A stretch of DNA of 6,756 bases from Planctomycetota bacterium (lineage in GTDB: Bacteria; Planctomycetota; Phycisphaerae; WQYP01): assembly GCA_021785155.1 (NCBI GenBank), contig JAJYGE010000364.1, forward strand, positions 1 through 6,756, written 5' to 3'. This document shows, one piece after another, positions 1,319 through 6,756 of the stretch (the stretch's first letter is position 1; each line of letters starts with the position of its first letter). Made by a program: the position numbers and the translations under genes. A model generated the notes under the pieces. It was not told where the DNA came from and ran no database searches. It was given only the letters and a program-made list of their open reading frames with translations.

Positions 1319-2775
1319 TTCTTTGCCTCTCGTATGACAGCCACTATCTCATCCACACGCGAATGCCAGGAATGTTTGCCCGCTTCTGCGCGTCGTAAGT
1401 CGCTTTTTTCCGTACCCTCGGCCAGCGCCGCCTGGCATTGTGCCAGAAAATCTTCAGCCGTCCGGGCGATCCGCACAAACTGCGGGTAATCGCGAAAGCC
1501 CGCGACATCCGTGGATACTATCGGCTTGCCCGCCGCCAGGTATTCCCACAGCTTTATCGGGTTAAGACTCTCCACAAACGCAGTCATGCAGTGCGGCACA
1601 ATGCACACATCAAACGCCCGCATATACTGCGGCAAATCTCGGTACGCCATCGGCCCCGTAAATATCACGCGGCCCGTAGCCTCCAGCCGCTTCCGGTCAT
1701 CAGCCGGCAGCATCACCGGGCCAATAAGCACAAGGGTCCCCGGCAGCTTTTTCGCTGTCATCGCCACGGTCATCGCCTCGACCAACTTAACATCCACACG
1801 ATCCGCATGAATACTGCCCGTGTAGCCGAAAACGGGCGGGCACCAGTTCCGGCACGCTTCCGGCAAGGGTGTATGGTCATCAAGGACACAGCGATAATGT
1901 GCCGCATCCACGCCATTGGGAACCAGGTGAATGTTCCTTGATAATGCTTTGCGCGATTCATACAGTGACCTGGAACATACAATAACCGCATCCGCCCGGC
2001 GACAAAGTTCCGCATCTTCCGCCATGGTGCGTTCCAGCAACGCCTTGCGCTGCGTAAAATGTGTGAATTGCGTCCAGTCATCGGTGATATCATAAATCAC
2101 CCGCGACTCGCCCATGCGTCCCACCATGTGAACAGCATCCTGCGGGTTGAGCCACAGCACGACGCTGCGATGCGGAGAGGAGTTGGGAGTTAGGAGATAG
2201 GAGTTAGAATTATTTGTGCAGTCAGTATTGGCAGTACATTCAGGATTTTCCGCCTCCGTTACCTCCTTCGCCTCTGTGGTGGATCCCCCCGTGTCGCCCT
2301 CTTCTAACTTCTCACTTCTATCCCGGCGCGCCGGGACTAACTTCTCGTCCCCCCCTGTCCCCTGTAACCTATAATCTGCAACCTCTCGCCACCTTTGATC
2401 CGTGATCCGTGATCCGTGATCCGTGGTCATTGATCTTTGATCATTGAAGCGCAGCGCCGCCCGCCGAACATGCACCCGAGCCATGAAATCATTGACCCAT
2501 CTCCCCACCGCCAGCGAACTGGGCAACAACTTAAGCGGTTTGGTGACCGTGATATTAGGAAAACCCTCCGGGTGCCAATTGTTTGACCCGCGCAGCGACC
2601 CAAGCCGCCGTGTGCGAATGGCATTGGAAACATCCCGCGGCGGACACACAAACAGTATCCGCATATCCGGATACCGCCGCGCCAGCTCCGCGCAAACAAA
2701 CTGATTGCGCCGCCAGATGTCGTCCCAATTTTCCAAAGAAACAAATATCAATAAACACATAGGGCGATGGAGCAT
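1315..2775 (-). CDS. GT4-type glycosyltransferase with a 90-residue repeat-encoded insert
   Basis: A GT-B glycosyltransferase of 486 residues, about 90 longer than expected. The N-terminal part (1-110) has LLIFVSLENWDDIWRRNQ and LFVCPPRDVSN. Homology-like sequence resumes at about 204 with VVLWLNPQDAV, then YDITDDW (228-234), VPNGVD (275-280), FGYTGSIH (316-323) and a C-terminal donor motif with E402 and E411 (NPIKLWEYLAAGKPIVS). Residues 111-200 are low-complexity, polar and encoded by tandem short repeats (2176-2445); they fall between the two Rossmann domains or in a loop ahead of the second. Start: ATG at 2775 with AGGAG (2780-2784) 4 nt upstream; a second Met at residue 6 is possible. 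It overlaps the downstream glycosyltransferase by 4 nt, so the two form one translation unit. Whether the insert leaves the enzyme active is unknown. Confidence 0.88.
   Translation of the reverse strand: MLHRPMCLLIFVSLENWDDIWRRNQFVCAELARRYPDMRILFVCPPRDVSNAIRTRRLGSLRGSNNWHPEGFPNITVTKPLKLLPSSLAVGRWVNDFMARVHVRRAALRFNDQRSMTTDHGSRITDQRWREVADYRLQGTGGDEKLVPARRDRSEKLEEGDTGGSTTEAKEVTEAENPECTANTDCTNNSNSYLLTPNSSPHRSVVLWLNPQDAVHMVGRMGESRVIYDITDDWTQFTHFTQRKALLERTMAEDAELCRRADAVIVCSRSLYESRKALSRNIHLVPNGVDAAHYRCVLDDHTPLPEACRNWCPPVFGYTGSIHADRVDVKLVEAMTVAMTAKKLPGTLVLIGPVMLPADDRKRLEATGRVIFTGPMAYRDLPQYMRAFDVCIVPHCMTAFVESLNPIKLWEYLAAGKPIVSTDVAGFRDYPQFVRIARTAEDFLAQCQAALAEGTEKSDLRRAEAGKHSWHSRVDEIVAVIREAKN
2176..2445. 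repeat. Mosaic of several unrelated 7-nt and 9-nt tandem repeats inside a glycosyltransferase gene
   Basis: On the plus strand the blocks are: GAGTTGG, GAGTTAG, GAGATAG, GAGTTAG (2180-2207); a CAGTATT segment (about 2219-2245); a 9-nt family CCTCCGTTA, CCTCCTTCG, CCTCTGTGG (about 2252-2278); CTTCTAA, CTTCTCA, CTTCTAT (2301-2321) and CTTCTCG (2341-2347) split by a 16-bp palindrome; CCCTGTC, CCCTGTA, ACCTATA, ATCTGCA, ACCTCTC (2353-2387); and TGATCCG four times, then TGGTCAT, TGATCTT, TGATCAT (2396-2444). The tract is about 270 nt, a multiple of three, with no stop in the host frame. Dominance of 7-nt units recalls the short tandemly repeated repetitive (STRR) heptamers known from heterocystous cyanobacteria, but many different units are packed together here. 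The edges coincide closely with the foreign-looking segment of the protein. Confidence 0.9.
2321..2336. repeat. 16-bp perfect palindrome inside the repeat mosaic
   Basis: TCCCGGCGCGCCGGGA equals its own reverse complement and interrupts the CTTCTNN heptamer run: three units precede it and one follows. Its GC-only core contrasts with the pyrimidine-rich repeats around it. It could form a cruciform or an RNA hairpin and may mark where the array was joined or nucleated. Confidence 0.85.
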
Positions 2776-2960: not shown

Positions 2961-3302
2961 TTACCGAATCGCCTCGATCCGATCTCGATACACACTAATG
3001 AGTCTATGGCTGGGCAAAAGCCGCTCAATGCGCGGCCAGACAGCGGCGGCGAATGCGTGAAACTCAGCTCGTTGCAGATTACCAATACAAAACCGCACGA
3101 CCCAAGGCGGCGGCTCAGATAGCATGGCCCGGTTGGAAAAATCAGCATCCTTCGTAATAATTACATAGCGGTGTGCCCGGGCATAATCCCAAAGGAAGGA
3201 ATCTGAGAGGCCCTTTCCCAGCGACGTTACGTGGACCATGGGATGGGATGGCGCGAAAGTAACGCGGCATGGCATGTTCTCGTCAAGCAGGAAGCCATTC
3301 AC
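2961..3302 (-). CDS. DUF5615 PIN-like toxin (putative RNase)
   Basis: A 113-residue protein of the DUF5615 PIN-like family, expected to act as the RNase toxin of a TA pair. Conserved acidic and polar residues are visible: LLDENMP near the N-terminus (D7, E8, N9), SDSFLWDYA (S33, D34, D39), and VIITKDADF (K51, D52, D54), matching the D-E-N ... S-D ... T-K-D-x-D-F order of this family. The start is GTG at 3300-3302; it overlaps the antitoxin stop as GTGA, and GAGGAA (3308-3313) lies 5 nt ahead. The antitoxin gene directly upstream is DUF433, its usual partner. The target RNA cannot be predicted. Two nucleotides away an ATG exists in another frame but gives no matching protein. Confidence 0.88.
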   Translation of the reverse strand: MNGFLLDENMPCRVTFAPSHPMVHVTSLGKGLSDSFLWDYARAHRYVIITKDADFSNRAMLSEPPPWVVRFCIGNLQRAEFHAFAAAVWPRIERLLPSHRLISVYRDRIEAIR

Positions 3303-3683: not shown

Positions 3684-3718
3684 CTCTATTCCAAGTTCCA
3701 GGCTCTATCTCCCAACCT
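3684..3718. repeat. Degenerate heptamer run at the 3' end of the GT2 gene
   Basis: On the minus strand AGGTTGG, GAGATAG, AGCCTGG, AACTTGG, AATAGAG run at 7-nt spacing and encode the last residues and the TAG stop of the GT2 protein. GTTGGGAG and GGAGATAG also occur in the mosaic at 2181-2200, on the opposite strand, which supports a shared origin. Divergence between units makes this less certain than the tract at 2396-2444. Confidence 0.5.
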
Positions 3719-4642
3719 CCGATGTTCCGCTCCGCCGCGGCGGACGATTAGCCATGCGCGCAGGCGGATTTTCGCCGCCAACTTCGCCCGCCGCTTGGGC
3801 ATCACCAGCCACATAATTCCCCACAGCGGCATTCGTAACAACCCGCCCACCATCACCGCCACCCGCGCACTGTACATACCCGGCACACCATGATGTTTGC
3901 GATAATAGTAATCTCCGCTTTCAAAAAAATAATTGTTTATCTTCGGTCTATCATCCGCACCGCTGGCCCCACCCAGGTGCGTCACCCGAGCCGCGGGAGT
4001 AAACGCGATTTTCCACCCGCCGGCACGAATCCGCCTCTGCCAATCCGTCTCCTCGGCATACATGAAAAATCCCGAATCAAAGCCCCCCACCGTTTCATAC
4101 ACGCTTCGCCGCACCATCATACACGCCCCGATCACCCATTCCGGATGGTACGGTGTATCATGCGGCCAGCGACGAAGATCCCCCAGAAAACTGGTCGCCG
4201 GTGCTACCGCGGAAATCCATAATGCCTCCAGCCACGCCACCAGCGGCGAAGGAAACCGATAACACGATCGCTGCAACGATCCATCCGCATTCAACAGCCG
4301 CGGTCCCACCAACCCAATGTCCGGCTTGTCATGCAACGCCTTGAGCATCGCCGGCAATGCGCCGGAAGTTAAAAACGCATCGCTGTTCAACAGCAGAAAG
4401 TTATCCCCCTTCGCCTGCTTCATCGCCACATTATTCGCGGCTCCAAATCCCGCATTCTCCGCATTGCGTATCAGCACCACCTGCGGAAACTCATTGACAA
4501 TGGCATCCGCACTGCCGTCCGCGGACGCGTTATCCACCACGATAACCTCCGCCGCCACGCCATCCAGATGCGCAAACACCGCCCGCAGACAACGAAGCGT
4601 CGTGTCACGGGTATTAAACGAAATGATGATAATGGAAAGCAT
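3686..4642 (-). CDS. Glycosyltransferase family 2 (rhamnosyltransferase-like)
   Basis: A 318-residue inverting GT-A glycosyltransferase of the WcaE/rhamnosyltransferase-like group, acting on the cytoplasmic face during polysaccharide assembly. Seen in order: LSIIIISFNTRD (2-13), VIVVDNASADGS (33-44), NAENAGFGAANN (60-71), the metal-binding LLNSDAF (84-90), WVIGACMMVRRS (169-180), and the acceptor or base motif FFMYAEETDWQRR (192-204). A hydrophobic stretch near 263-282 may dock it to the membrane. The ATG at 4640-4642 has AAGGA (4648-4652) 5 nt ahead. The final residues (RLGDRAWNLE) are encoded by a degenerate heptamer run and may not be native. A 78-bp copy of its 5' end lies 1.3 kb upstream at 5871-5948. 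Confidence 0.93.
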   Translation of the reverse strand: MLSIIIISFNTRDTTLRCLRAVFAHLDGVAAEVIVVDNASADGSADAIVNEFPQVVLIRNAENAGFGAANNVAMKQAKGDNFLLLNSDAFLTSGALPAMLKALHDKPDIGLVGPRLLNADGSLQRSCYRFPSPLVAWLEALWISAVAPATSFLGDLRRWPHDTPYHPEWVIGACMMVRRSVYETVGGFDSGFFMYAEETDWQRRIRAGGWKIAFTPAARVTHLGGASGADDRPKINNYFFESGDYYYRKHHGVPGMYSARVAVMVGGLLRMPLWGIMWLVMPKRRAKLAAKIRLRAWLIVRRGGAEHRRLGDRAWNLE

Positions 4643-4647
4643 TGTTT

Positions 4648-4722: not shown

Positions 4723-5130
4723 TCAGTATTTCAAATGTTTGATGTCGTTAAATTTACCAAGATCGTTGTCAAATGATGCGACGCCGGTATTCGTATAATG
4801 CGCCGTCGCCGCAAGATACGCATCACCAAAGTCCACGTTCGCCACTTGCACACGCCTCAGAGCGTCGTTGACACGTTGCGGTTCGTGTAAGCGAAAGGCG
4901 GGCGTATTGAGCACGTCAGCCAGCGTATTGGCGGCACTGCGGCGGTCAATTTGATAAACCGATTTCAACGTATAAAACATTTCTGCAACGGTCACGGCGG
5001 ATACTTCCAGCACGCATTCGCCGGCGTTAGCCCGGGCAATTAAGGATCGGGCCTTCCGCGAATATTCTTTGTGGTCGTCACGCAGGAACCGCAGCAGAAT
5101 ATTGGCGTCCATTTGGTAAACATCCGGCAT
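4723..5130 (-). CDS. PIN-domain toxin of a VapBC-type pair
   Basis: A 135-residue PIN-domain ribonuclease, the toxin of a type II TA module. The four acidic metal-binding positions are all present: D8 (QMDANILLRFL), E50 (TVAEMFYTL), D100 and D103 (VDFGDAYLAATA), and D121/D123 (ASFDNDLGKF), so it should be catalytically competent. The typical targets of VapC proteins are tRNAs or rRNA, but the specificity here is unknown. Its ATG (5128-5130) shares one base with the antitoxin TAA, giving translational coupling. The last codon and stop (TAC TGA) belong to a single AATACTGATC motif that matches the CAGTATT repeat family elsewhere in the window. The GT2 gene follows 80 bp downstream. Confidence 0.92.
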   Translation of the reverse strand: MPDVYQMDANILLRFLRDDHKEYSRKARSLIARANAGECVLEVSAVTVAEMFYTLKSVYQIDRRSAANTLADVLNTPAFRLHEPQRVNDALRRVQVANVDFGDAYLAATAHYTNTGVASFDNDLGKFNDIKHLKY

Positions 5131-5393
5131 TAACGAGCCTCTTTCGCGGCCCTGCCGGCGATGGCGCGATGGGCCTTGGCCTTCTCATGGCGGTCATAGG
5201 GGATCCGATTTTTCAGCGCGCCATAATAAGACATTACGTCAGGGAGCGGACGAAGTGTCACATCACCATCCGCGGACAGGTGCATACGAATTTTTCGGGC
5301 TGTGCCCAGCCGGAGAGATTTTCTTATGGCCACGGGCAGCGTTATCTGGCCACGCGTGGTAACGGTTATGTCGCGCATAATTTCTTGTTTCAT
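5130..5393 (-). CDS. AbrB/MazE-type antitoxin of the VapBC pair
   Basis: A small DNA-binding antitoxin with an N-terminal SpoVT/AbrB swapped-hairpin domain (DITVTTRGQITLPVAIRKSL, then LGTARKIRMHL and DVTLRPL) and a basic C-terminal tail that should bind the PIN toxin. The frame is open to 5444, but I choose the ATG at 5391-5393 (MKQEIMRD), giving 87 residues, because a promoter-like element lies over the longer version and the domain begins a few residues later. The ATG at 5376-5378 is the other possibility. The -10 box ends 7 nt before the chosen ATG and no Shine-Dalgarno is visible, so translation is probably leaderless. Its stop overlaps the toxin start as TAATG. Confidence 0.87.
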   Translation of the reverse strand: MKQEIMRDITVTTRGQITLPVAIRKSLRLGTARKIRMHLSADGDVTLRPLPDVMSYYGALKNRIPYDRHEKAKAHRAIAGRAAKEAR

Positions 5394-5400
5394 AGGAATT

Positions 5401-5429
5401 ATCTTACATTTATACAAAGCAAGATACAA
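5401..5429 (-). promoter_or_regulatory. Promoter and possible operator of the VapBC-type operon
   Basis: TTGTAT (5424-5429) and TAAGAT (5401-5406) are separated by 17 nt on the minus strand, and TTTGTATAAAT lies between. The arms ATCTT (5401-5405) and AAGAT (5421-5425) form an inverted repeat across the promoter, a reasonable site for autorepression by the AbrB-type antitoxin. The start site would fall about at the ATG (5393). Confidence 0.55.
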
Positions 5430-5444
5430 GTTGGCATGGCGCAA

Positions 5445-5476: not shown

Positions 5477-5786
5477 TCAGGCAGCAAAGAGTGTCACCTT
5501 GTCTCGATTAACAGTTTCCAGAAAATAGGAATTGACAGCGGTGCGGGCGCTGACCAATTCAACCTTAACGTCGAACAGGGCTTCCAGGTCTTCCTGCAAA
5601 CCAAACCATTGGTCCGCGATGGAAGGGACCGCATAGTCGGTAAATTCCACGATAAAATCCAAGTCACTGGTCTTGGGATTAAAGTCTCCACGCGCTGCCG
5701 ATCCAAAATAGCTCAAGCCGGCGGACATCATGCCTGCGGCAAAGTGAGTCGATCTCGGCGCGGTGTTGTTCAATCAATGGCAACAT
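5477..5786 (-). pseudogene. mntA: MntA-type nucleotidyltransferase, frameshifted
   Basis: This is a minimal nucleotidyltransferase of the MntA/HepT family, in which MntA is the antitoxin that modifies (AMPylates) the HEPN toxin HepT. The C-terminal part contains the catalytic GSAARGDFNPKTSDLDF with the GS and DxD residues, then ALFDVKVELVS and a normal C-terminus. The N-terminal part, MLPLIEQHRAEIDSLCRRHD followed by VRRLELF, is typical of the family but lies in another frame. The two join if one T is removed from the T4 run at 5705-5708; as it stands the first frame stops soon after. The restored protein would be about 105 residues. An intact-looking frame starting at 5773 has a meaningless N-terminus (MNNTAPRSTHF). 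No HEPN gene is visible on either side. Alternatives are a sequencing error or slippage in the T run. Confidence 0.83.
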
Positions 5787-5870: not shown

Positions 5871-5948
5871 CCAGATGCGCAAACACCGCCCGCAGACAAC
5901 ATGCGTCGTATCACGGGTATTAAACACAATGATGATAATGGAAAGCAT
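5871..5948 (-). pseudogene. Broken copy of the GT2 gene 5' end
   Basis: The 78 bp here match 4564-4642, the first 26 codons of the GT2 gene, with four substitutions and one 1-nt gap by my count. The copy starts exactly at the ATG (5946-5948) and reads MLSIIIIVFNTRDTT before the gap shifts the frame. Beyond 5871 the match ends abruptly. Directly upstream of the ATG there is no ribosome binding site but CAGTATT-type repeat DNA. The copy and the original are in the same orientation and bracket the mntA-VapBC segment as imperfect direct repeats, so the pair records a duplication or an insertion event. Confidence 0.85.
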
Positions 5949-5951
5949 TTT

Positions 5952-5988
5952 CAGTATTTTCAGTATTGGTCAGTATTAATCAGTATCG
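5952..5988. repeat. CAGTATT array downstream of the four-helix-bundle gene
   Basis: Four units begin at 5952, 5961, 5971 and 5981 (CAGTATT, CAGTATT, CAGTATT, CAGTATC), with spacing of 9 to 10 nt and variable filler (TT, GGT, AAT). Read on the minus strand, the units contain TACTGA, and TGA or TAA falls in all three frames. The array encodes the last codons and TAA stop of the four-helix-bundle protein and ends two to three bases before the ATG of the GT2 fragment. Confidence 0.9.
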
Positions 5989-6416
5989 GTAGGCAGGGAT
6001 TGTTTTCGGCGGAGTGTGCGCATAGAGGCGTAGAGTATACGTGCCACTTCGTCGGCAGATGCGATAATTTCGGCACCACTTGCGTTGCTGAGATAGCCCG
6101 AATCGACCAGCAGGTTCACCCAGTATTTTGATTCCTGACATTCCTTATACGCAATTGCAATCTTGTTGGAAAGATCGGCTCCAGACACGGCCCCGCCCGA
6201 TTCGGCTAAATTCGCTCCCGCAGAGGTTCCGCTGCGCAGCAACTGCTTCGAGAGTACATACTCACGTTTTTCAGACCGCAGATGTTCGCATATTTTTACC
6301 ACCTTTAGCGCCAGCGCATACCCCATCTTAAATGCCGGCCCCTCATTCGCCACTGTCGGCGAATTGCCGCCAAAAGCCTTCCGATTTCCACCGTTCGATT
6401 TATAAGAATTCACCAT
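5976..6416 (-). CDS. Four-helix-bundle protein (23S rRNA intervening-sequence / S23 family)
   Basis: A 146-residue member of the S23 / four-helix-bundle family. Family features visible: YALALKVVKICEHL (33-46), KREYVLSKQLLRSGTSAGAN (50-69) with the conserved QLLRSGTS turn, AESGGAVSGADLSNKIAIAY (71-90) and KECQESKYWVNLLVDSGYL (91-109). Relatives are encoded inside 23S rRNA intervening sequences or alone, and the Avd accessory protein of diversity-generating retroelements belongs to the same fold; the general function is not settled, though basic surfaces suggest nucleic-acid binding. The ATG at 6414-6416 has GGAGG (6424-6428) 7 nt upstream, giving about 25 extra N-terminal residues rich in Gly and Asn. 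The C-terminus (PTDTD) is written by repeat DNA, and CAGTATT arrays lie on both sides. No rRNA or reverse transcriptase is present. Confidence 0.88.
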   Translation of the reverse strand: MVNSYKSNGGNRKAFGGNSPTVANEGPAFKMGYALALKVVKICEHLRSEKREYVLSKQLLRSGTSAGANLAESGGAVSGADLSNKIAIAYKECQESKYWVNLLVDSGYLSNASGAEIIASADEVARILYASMRTLRRKQSLPTDTD

Positions 6417-6432: not shown

Positions 6433-6665
6433 CAGTATCTTCAGTATTACTCAGTATTGATCAGTATTATCAGTATTGTCGGCATCATCAGTATTATGGG
6501 TATATTCAGTGCCTGCAGTCGCGGCAGTATTAACAGGACATTCAGTATTTTGCTCGGCAGGTAAACCTGCCGGGTACTGCATATTCTGAACGTACTGAAG
6601 AACACTGACCAATACTGATAATACTGATAATACTGATCAATACTGACCAATACTGATACTTACTG
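6433..6665. repeat. Large CAGTATT/AATACTG array with inverted halves
   Basis: On the plus strand the left half holds CAGTATT-type units at 6433, 6442, 6452, 6462, 6471, 6489, 6525 and 6543; the right half holds the complementary AATACTG at 6611, 6620, 6629, 6639 and 6649. Spacing within runs is 9-10 nt. The segments 6451-6477 and 6620-6646 are perfect 27-bp inverted complements, so the region can fold into a long stem whose 142-nt loop contains another hairpin (6555-6572). No gene is seen between 6417 and 6636. The array fills the gap between the upstream glycosyltransferase and the four-helix-bundle gene, and runs into the coding end of the former. Confidence 0.9.
6555..6572. repeat. Hairpin at the centre of the CAGTATT array
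   Basis: CGGCAGG (6555-6561) and CCTGCCG (6566-6572) pair perfectly around TAAA. It lies between the two oppositely oriented halves of the array. Like the palindrome at 2321-2336 it is a GC-rich symmetric element inside AT-richer repeats. It may also serve as a transcription terminator, but no T run follows on either strand. Confidence 0.8.
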
Positions 6666-6756
6666 AATACGCATCCAGCATCTTCTCCGCCATCTGTTGC
6701 GCGGTGAACATTTTCTCATACCGCTTCCGCCCCGCTTCCCCCATGCGCTTCCGCAT
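6637..6756 (-). CDS. C-terminal end of a GT4 glycosyltransferase (cut by window edge)
   Basis: The minus-strand frame entering at 6756 encodes RMGEAGRKRYEKMFTAQQ followed by MAEKMLDAY, the usual C-terminal helix of GT4 glycosyltransferases (compare EMGRRGYERVHQQFSWERVAEQMARIY in the gene at 152-1318, split here as EMGRRGYERVHQQF and SWERVAEQMARIY). The gene starts outside the window. After the tyrosine the frame enters the CAGTATT array, which adds SVSISIGQY and the TGA at 6637-6639, so the last nine residues are repeat-derived. It is probably the upstream member of the same polysaccharide cluster. Confidence 0.82.
   Translation of the reverse strand: MRKRMGEAGRKRYEKMFTAQQMAEKMLDAYSVSISIGQY

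Follow-up and report, generated by a model that had tools for sequence, protein, structure and literature searches.

Tandem heptamers are familiar from cyanobacteria as STRR repeats, which are single-family, mainly intergenic, present in many tandem copies and restricted to lineages, and P6b of the Nostoc tRNA-Leu intron contains heptanucleotide hairpins in which both arms are heptamer arrays. The TAACTGA repeats of Beggiatoaceae are also single-family tandem heptamers, mainly intergenic and lineage-restricted, according to the sections of PMC4679880 that deal with them. Palindromes that are read as protein are represented by the RPE of Rickettsia and by related elements of Wolbachia and M. 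jannaschii, which the relevant parts of PMC10969869 and PMC2996958 describe as in-frame palindromic repeats in unrelated proteins. The same parts give RPEs as ~150-bp units in unrelated metabolic genes, typically inserted in non-structured segments and with further copies outside ORFs (PMC10969869, PMC2996958). PARCEL (palindromic amphipathic repeat coding elements) are presented in the corresponding section of PMC2996958 as a tandem 25-aa domain repeat, found in lipoproteins in some taxa.

We have analysed a stretch of 6,756 nucleotides from a Planctomycetota bacterium (the window), in which a glycosyltransferase (GT) gene is interrupted by an in-frame mosaic of short repeats. Compared by description, the closest known kind is the protein-coding palindromic element exemplified by RPE. 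As in RPE, the repeats of the relatives are palindromic with inverted arms, they lie in-frame at tolerated places in unrelated proteins (several GT4 subfamilies and four pseudopilin ORFs), and homologues without the insert exist (outgroup GTs, median 33 residues). Unlike RPE, the Planctomycetota repeat has arms of tandem heptamer arrays and combinatorial modules, it is known from GT-B enzymes and prepilin leaders as hosts, and whether a copy is free of stops or contains them depends on its location. The heptamer-array arms, the coding and non-coding versions, and the GT-B and prepilin hosts are new relative to the known coding palindromes. With PARCEL, thought to be shuffled within genomes according to its section in PMC2996958, it shares palindromic coding repeats that vary surface-related proteins; unlike PARCEL, the insert is a predicted disordered linker, and the Pfam scan gave no 25-aa amphipathic repeat (DUF285/TIGR02167). 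Tandem heptamers, many copies and restriction to a lineage are shared with STRR and TAACTGA repeats, but here several families are combined, inverted pairs surround palindromic cores, and the repeats are read as protein. In being short hairpins dispersed over intergenic sites and the ends of genes, the repeats resemble REP, BIME and MITE elements. The modules have inverted arms; these are tandem heptamers, and no transposase was linked to them at six Y1_Tnp loci. In contrast to Nostoc P6b, which is confined to one site in an intron and does not encode protein, the Planctomycetota repeat is both dispersed and coding.

The original prediction described a tract of many tandem-repeat families, with a nonamer and a palindrome, lying in-frame within the GT gene and free of stops in the host frame. 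All of these elements were located (Table 1), and CAGTATT words were recognised as one further family. Identity at lag 7 in 2176-2445 was 0.468, compared with 0.249 +/- 0.027 (z 8.2) in overlapping windows of 270 nt elsewhere in the sequence; the z values for lags 14, 21 and 9 were 5.7, 3.6 and 2.1. Of the six frames, the host frame alone runs through the tract without a stop. Repeat material probably extends to ~2463, since the core word that follows the TGATCAT-type units here follows such arrays elsewhere too. In the CTAACTC arm the second unit is CTATCTC, i.e. TAT in place of TAA. The CAGTATT family also makes up arrays at 5947-5990 and 6433-6666 of the window, and the peptide of the palindrome, VPARRD, recurs in the homologues P0003 and P0007. 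On its own the window insert consists of module fragments and one 16-nt palindrome only, and its matches in the other DNA retrieved are pieces of ~90 nt, in genome G001.

Table 1. Positions of the GT gene, the elements of its insert and the second module in the window.
Feature	Position	Strand	Basis
GT-B (GT4-type) glycosyltransferase gene, insert host, 486 aa	1315-2775	-	Pfam PF13692/PF00534/PF13524
In-frame mosaic repeat insert, residues ~105-200, between R104 and LW(207)	2176-2463	-	alignment, lag-7 excess, pLDDT
CTAACTC arm, GGAGTTGG...GAGTTAGAA, peptide NSYLLTPNS	2179-2209	-	stop-avoiding variant test
CAGTATT-type words (AATACTG on coding strand); CAGTATT at 2223-2229	2223-2243	-	
Nonamer CCTCCGTTACCTCC / GGAGGTAACGGAGG, peptide EVTEAEN	2253-2266	-	
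AAGTTAG-type units (CTTCTAA on +), 2.9 copies; CTTCTAACTTCT at 2301-2312	2301-2320	-	
Perfect 16-nt palindrome TCCCGGCGCGCCGGGA flanked by AAGTTAG words, peptide VPARRD	2321-2336	.	
Words CCCCTGTCCCCTGTAACCT / AGGTTACAGGGGACAGGGG, peptide YRLQGTG	2352-2370	-	families AACCTGT/ACAGGGG
ACGGATC array (TGATCCG on +), 4.3 exact copies, peptide DHGSRITD	2396-2425	-	
Degenerate TGATCAT/TGATCTT/TGGTCAT units (GGTCATTGATC...)	2425-2447	-	words recur in other islands
Core word GAAGCGCAGCGCC / GGCGCTGCGCTTC, adjoining TGATCAT units	2446-2458	-	recurrent core word
Second module, outside gene: CAGTATT array, palindrome GGCAGGTAAACCTGCC (6556-6571), AATACTG array	6433-6666	.	

The host protein matched PF13692 (Glyco_trans_1_4) with an E value of 2.6e-13 in the Pfam scan, and its top Foldseek matches were GT-B enzymes, e.g. 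sucrose-phosphate synthase and MshA (TM ~0.5). The flanks of the insert are under purifying selection (dN 0.02-0.08 and dS 0.48-0.73 relative to loci L001 and L002), and the resulting flank dN/dS of ~0.03-0.13 rules out a pseudogene. A protein search returned 1413 matches, of which 120 are listed and used for comparison; among those listed, the window protein and P0002-P0019 make up a close group of 19 sequences with 65-78% identity, and two of its members are named Phycisphaerae MAG proteins. In the alignment the 19 sequences are conserved to residue ~104 (R104) and again from residue 207 (LW), and in most of them the stretch between these blocks is low-complexity sequence that differs from one protein to the next. 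P0012-P0017 carry one insert in near-identical variants, and P0003 and P0007 have part of the insert in common. Across the close group, two fixed motifs stand 76-213 residues apart, compared with a median of 33 residues at the insert site in the 64 of 98 listed outgroups where both anchors were found (one negative outgroup distance reflects an anchor mis-hit, one outgroup reaches 105, and the value for P0021 is unreliable). Extra low-complexity residues at a tolerated site had been predicted, and the alignment agrees with this and shows the stretch to vary between homologues. No empty site was found among the 19 close sequences, and the outgroup GTs serve as the insert-free comparison. P0018 has a shorter, mid-length insert in which no heptamer words are visible by eye, so the loop may predate the repeats as a long loop.

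In the AlphaFold model of the window protein (mean pLDDT 69.8), residues 120-201 fall below 50, most other residues lie at 60-92, and there is a second low stretch at 393-404; the insert is accordingly predicted to be disordered. A conserved domain at the site is rejected, as the insert sequence differs among most homologues, and the Pfam scan (E up to 0.001) gave only glycosyltransferase domains. An assembly artefact is unlikely because separate MAGs have the same kind of insert with conserved flanks. A different insert with HHKDTKAQR words is present in P0020, a GT with 55% identity, and suggests that a more distant lineage may have a repeat lexicon of its own.

The closest relatives from a scan of GTDB genomes were L001-L004 in genomes G001-G004 (among 80 of 113 loci), which are all MAGs; the relatives are Phycisphaerales/Planctomycetota MAGs, and to our knowledge the lineage with the repeat is known only from MAGs. 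Words of the insert were found elsewhere in these relatives. The ACGGATC/TGATCCG word of the window array occurs in all four genomes, with 15, 32, 7 and 1 TGATCCG dimers and none of the reversed control. In a sample of the phylum the dimer was present in 11 of 246 genomes, in more than one copy in G002 only, and the reversed control in 3 of 246. GRAGTTAG dimers were present in 16 of 28 family genomes, at 1 to 339 copies each (control 0), and in 7 of 246 genomes of the phylum sample, where the genome next after G002 has 9. The control also matched 7 of 246, so that GRAGTTAG is near background outside the family, with G189 as a perhaps genuine exception. G189 has 9 GAGTTAG dimers (control 0), and no other genome sampled from outside the family has more than two.

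A de novo count of exact arrays, at loci partly chosen for repeats, was dominated by heptamers (AACTCCT 65, AACTTCT 28, ACGGATC 25 and AACCTGG 23, then smaller heptamer families), with nonamers also represented, e.g. AATCTGTGT with 6 arrays. Period 7 dominates the repeats of the G002 contigs: eight lag-7 runs of at least 12 matches were found in 246 kb (contigs 1-20), compared with none in a Markov shuffle and one in 797 kb of actinobacterial loci. Other dense repeat islands, themselves chosen for repeats, adjoin pseudopilin, transporter and acyltransferase genes; the names of such non-GT genes were assigned by eye. Six IMG/VR contigs (L247-L252) carry a 23-nt GAGTTAG array. As a check on a viral origin, seven GT proteins were compared by tblastn with the retrieved parts of these contigs and gave no match at 1e-10. 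The open-licence literature searched yielded no publication dealing with these repeat words or with inserts of this kind in Planctomycetota.

In the relatives several of the words are arranged in modules, in which a heptamer array is followed by a palindromic core and a reverse-complement array. Neighbouring GAGTTAG arms converge in 18 cases and diverge in 4, with 8 and 11 same-direction neighbours; converging and diverging arms stand at 5:0 for GAACCTG, 6:3 for CAGTATT and 1:0 for GATCACG, and the GTTACAG and GCAAATG families gave no neighbouring arm pairs. The gap between converging GAGTTAG arms is 66-75 nt in 11 of the 18 pairs, and palindromic cores, e.g. GGCAGGC...GCCTGCC or AGCGCAGCGCTTCC, are often found within the gaps of converging pairs. 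RNA folding gave -55 to -67 kcal/mol (z -7.4 to -10.3) for three non-coding and two coding modules, whereas part 6540-6660 of the second module of the window folds more weakly (z -3.3). The relatives and the window at 6433-6666 share one module plan, and several of the supposedly unrelated families are thus parts of one repeat system. Copies of the modules lie between genes, at gene ends and, in stop-free form and in a recurring frame, within GT-B genes and prepilin leaders.

We consider it probable that the insert is a mosaic of fragments from a lineage-specific dispersed palindromic repeat family, whose in-gene copies are stop-free. The original prediction had instead proposed a process that writes or collects unrelated repeats at tolerated sites. 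That part was not supported, as several of the words form ordered modules of one dispersed family in the relatives and inserts of different GT genes have stretches of 138-191 bp in common; the extra, in-frame and variable nature of the tract and the presence of its words elsewhere were borne out. No conserved domain occupies the site, and the units do occur elsewhere in the relatives.

The shared stretches also bear on ordinary microsatellite growth, in which a disordered GT loop would have gathered repeats by local slippage and mutation, unconnected with other repeats. The predominance of period 7, the short linker of the outgroups and the mid-length linker of P0018 with no visible heptamers are all in line with such growth. 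However, other GT4 genes, prepilin leaders and intergenic DNA of the relatives contain these words, cores and peptides as well, and the inserts of four different GT genes of G002 share their 138-191 bp at 84-92%, while no more than 93 nt at 72-73% is common to the flanks of these genes. Local growth is thus very unlikely as an explanation. For five of six coding inserts in G002 the best other match is another coding insert, and for the sixth it is an intergenic copy.

When the insert of P0011 (residues 106-296) was used as the sole query against 1775 candidates of ~0.55-1.75 times the length of P0011, all 22 matches (E at most 0.001), which include the query and three close homologues, carried glycosyltransferase Pfams. 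By sequence, 17 of the 22 belong to other GT4 subfamilies and one (P0122) is mixed. In other GT4s the inserts occupy the interdomain linker and loops of the C-domain that precede the region of the PFG/GFG motif. Across 872 kb of G002, selected in part for repeats or GT genes, internal tracts were present in 6 of 26 GT4-like ORFs and in 10 of 646 other ORFs, the latter being four pseudopilins and six which by eye were doubtful ORFs or contained other words. The 20 tracts of this sample are thus divided between GT4 genes (10), pseudopilins (4) and doubtful cases (6), and the Fisher p value for GT4 enrichment is 7e-7, 7e-6 or 1e-5 when 5, 9 or all 10 of the non-GT ORFs are counted.

The same peptides appear in the same frame in GT-B enzymes and prepilin leaders. 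At L137 196-5377, four tandem pseudopilin ORFs have 67-122 residues ahead of the cleavage motif, mostly repeat peptides, and the cassette peptides precede a motif of GFTLIE type. Three of the four have no ATG, GTG or TTG between the cassette and the cleavage motif, and the fourth has a TTG, located between two copies of the cassette. If starts use such codons, the lack of one between cassette and motif means that the cassette is at least partly translated.

In-gene and other copies differ at the codons where the repeat would terminate a protein. In the right arm the consensus of the second unit would read TAA in the GT frame. Copies classed as in-gene (at least 100 open codons on each side, judged without the test codon) have TAT here in 11 of 11 cases, as do 3 of 3 leader copies, in contrast to TAA in 107 of 114 others. 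With any codon counted, there are no stops among the 17 in-gene and leader copies and 112 among 131 elsewhere. The 17 comprise 14 TAT, two CAA and one TCA but never TAC, a hint that one stop-free module was the common ancestor, apart from a few separate solutions. The TAG site of the left arm reads TGG in 8 of 8 in-gene copies (seven sense, with L227 on the strand opposite its GT gene) and in 27 of 236 elsewhere, where TAG accounts for 209. Since the TAT and TGG copies are interrelated, the counts do not represent independent events and the evidence is suggestive. At gene ends the TAG of the heptamer serves as the stop, giving C-termini such as KLGVRS; GAGTTAG stops after C-termini ending in GVRS are found at L115 3399, L135 6046 and 7594, L148 7437 and L133 2930. 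Of nine left-arm sites scored as C-terminal, several lie in antisense frames and five were judged to be real gene ends. On the best reading, the in-gene copies descend largely from the stop-free version and persist in loops.

The original prediction also took part of the tract to be recent, which is supported indirectly by near-identical GTs that differ by 0, 1 or 2 added units of 46 residues. Between P0014 and P0016 the flanks match at 106/106 N-terminal and 279/279 C-terminal positions, and one of the two has an additional 46 residues in the insert; P0017 has 92 residues more than P0014 with flanks identical in 106/106 and 277/279 positions, although short-read collapse could shorten some copies. 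A rival reading is a contingency locus, in which slippage of heptamers would toggle the GT by phase variation, as short repeats do in surface-glycan genes of some pathogens. Unit lengths that are not multiples of three and hosts that are glycan enzymes agree with this, and P0022 begins at the very end of the insert, as expected of a frame-broken gene. On the other hand, the in-gene arrays are short and interrupted, the length steps seen are in-frame (138 nt) in protein databases, which would hide out-of-frame alleles, and 18 of the 19 close sequences have an uninterrupted frame from the usual N-terminus to beyond the insert; P0019 has a later start with the insert still in frame. We find toggling of the GT by slippage improbable.

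It is somewhat less doubtful, but still unlikely, that the common cassettes exist as a recombination machine for swapping GT domains and diversifying surface glycan. The strongest support would come from one candidate chimera and one internal duplication. In P0122 (458 aa), 203 N-terminal aa with 99.5% identity to P0002 are followed by the C-terminal part of a different GT4, the junction lying at a shared NSYLLTPNSS cassette, and P0130 (675 aa) has the host GT segment PYIFALGRMAKQKGFDVLIRAYGALRFND twice, bounded by cassettes. P0122 sits, however, on a single 3.2-kb contig (3205 nt), where misassembly at the repeat is possible, and the internal duplication of P0130 could likewise be an assembly error. 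The arrays do concentrate in glycan loci: in 427 kb of G002 (contigs C1-C41 in order, minus C34, C24 and C26, which had been picked for repeats or arrays), 19 of 22 period-7 arrays fall within a single 3.2-kb segment of a GT cluster, and no other locus in that sample has GT4 ORFs. The contigs left out hold 32 arrays and one GT4 ORF (C34) and 1 and 3 arrays (C24 and C26), and with them included 51 of 58 arrays lie in two stretches bearing GT4 ORFs. TGATCCG arrays, by contrast, are found on 11 G002 contigs, 8 of which have no PF00534 match.

A further possibility is a REP/BIME family driven by RAYT, in which Y1-type transposases move palindromes. Each of the eight genomes with at least 20 heptamer dimers has 5-8 Y1_Tnp matches, and the rank correlation between Y1_Tnp and heptamer numbers is 0.58 across 28 genomes, although it is confounded with genome size (0.40 and 0.56). 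G250 and G267 have 9 Y1_Tnp matches yet only 4 and 3 heptamer dimers, and Y1_Tnp genes are also present in family members without the heptamer. As regards a mobilising enzyme, no module flanked any of the six Y1_Tnp (RAYT-type) loci inspected, which contained stray words only: a GAGTTAG ~200 nt away (L224) and a core word ~390 nt away (L202). RAYT as the mover is thus not supported, and we rate this origin as quite improbable.

In this dispersed palindromic repeat family, the full module of heptamer array, palindromic GC-rich core and reverse-complement array forms a long, very stable hairpin on folding. We infer that stop-free modules were copied from gene to gene, through gene conversion or some other copy-and-insert step, and that the in-gene copies spread in this way. 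Slippage or unequal recombination would then alter the numbers of arrays and superunits, and versions that close the frame would be eliminated by selection. The protein would thereby gain a long disordered linker with no fixed sequence, which may be tolerated because of its position in loops.

An 80-nt near-copy of the start of a GT2 gene (3686-4642) is present in the window, where 4564-4643 is repeated at 5871-5949, downstream of a PIN/antitoxin/nucleotidyltransferase block that looks as if inserted with a duplication of ~80 bp. By Pfam, toxin-antitoxin-like genes lie between the GT genes at 2961-3302, 4723-5444, 5477-5773 and 5976-6416 and comprise DUF5615, PIN, nucleotidyltransferase and a 23S rRNA intervening-sequence protein, with a PrlF-like PIN partner below the cut-off. 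A PIN protein with nearly identical first 25 residues lies between GAGTTAG modules at L183 1447-1851.

In-frame insertion of palindromes has previously been described in Rickettsia and a few other organisms; in this Planctomycetota lineage such insertions have repeatedly affected a single enzyme class and show signs of recent change, and related bacteria have different floppy loops at one protein site. As in-gene and non-coding copies differ at the decisive codons, they offer a natural experiment in how a non-coding repeat becomes protein. More speculatively, and as a tentative possibility only, the family could be a genome-wide hairpin repeat in two versions, one containing stops for intergenic sites and gene ends and one stop-free and actively copied among surface-glycan GTs and prepilin leaders, which would provide built-in diversification through hypervariable linkers and, by cassette recombination, new combinations of GT domains. 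The repeats may also show a route by which genes for surface polysaccharides diversify.
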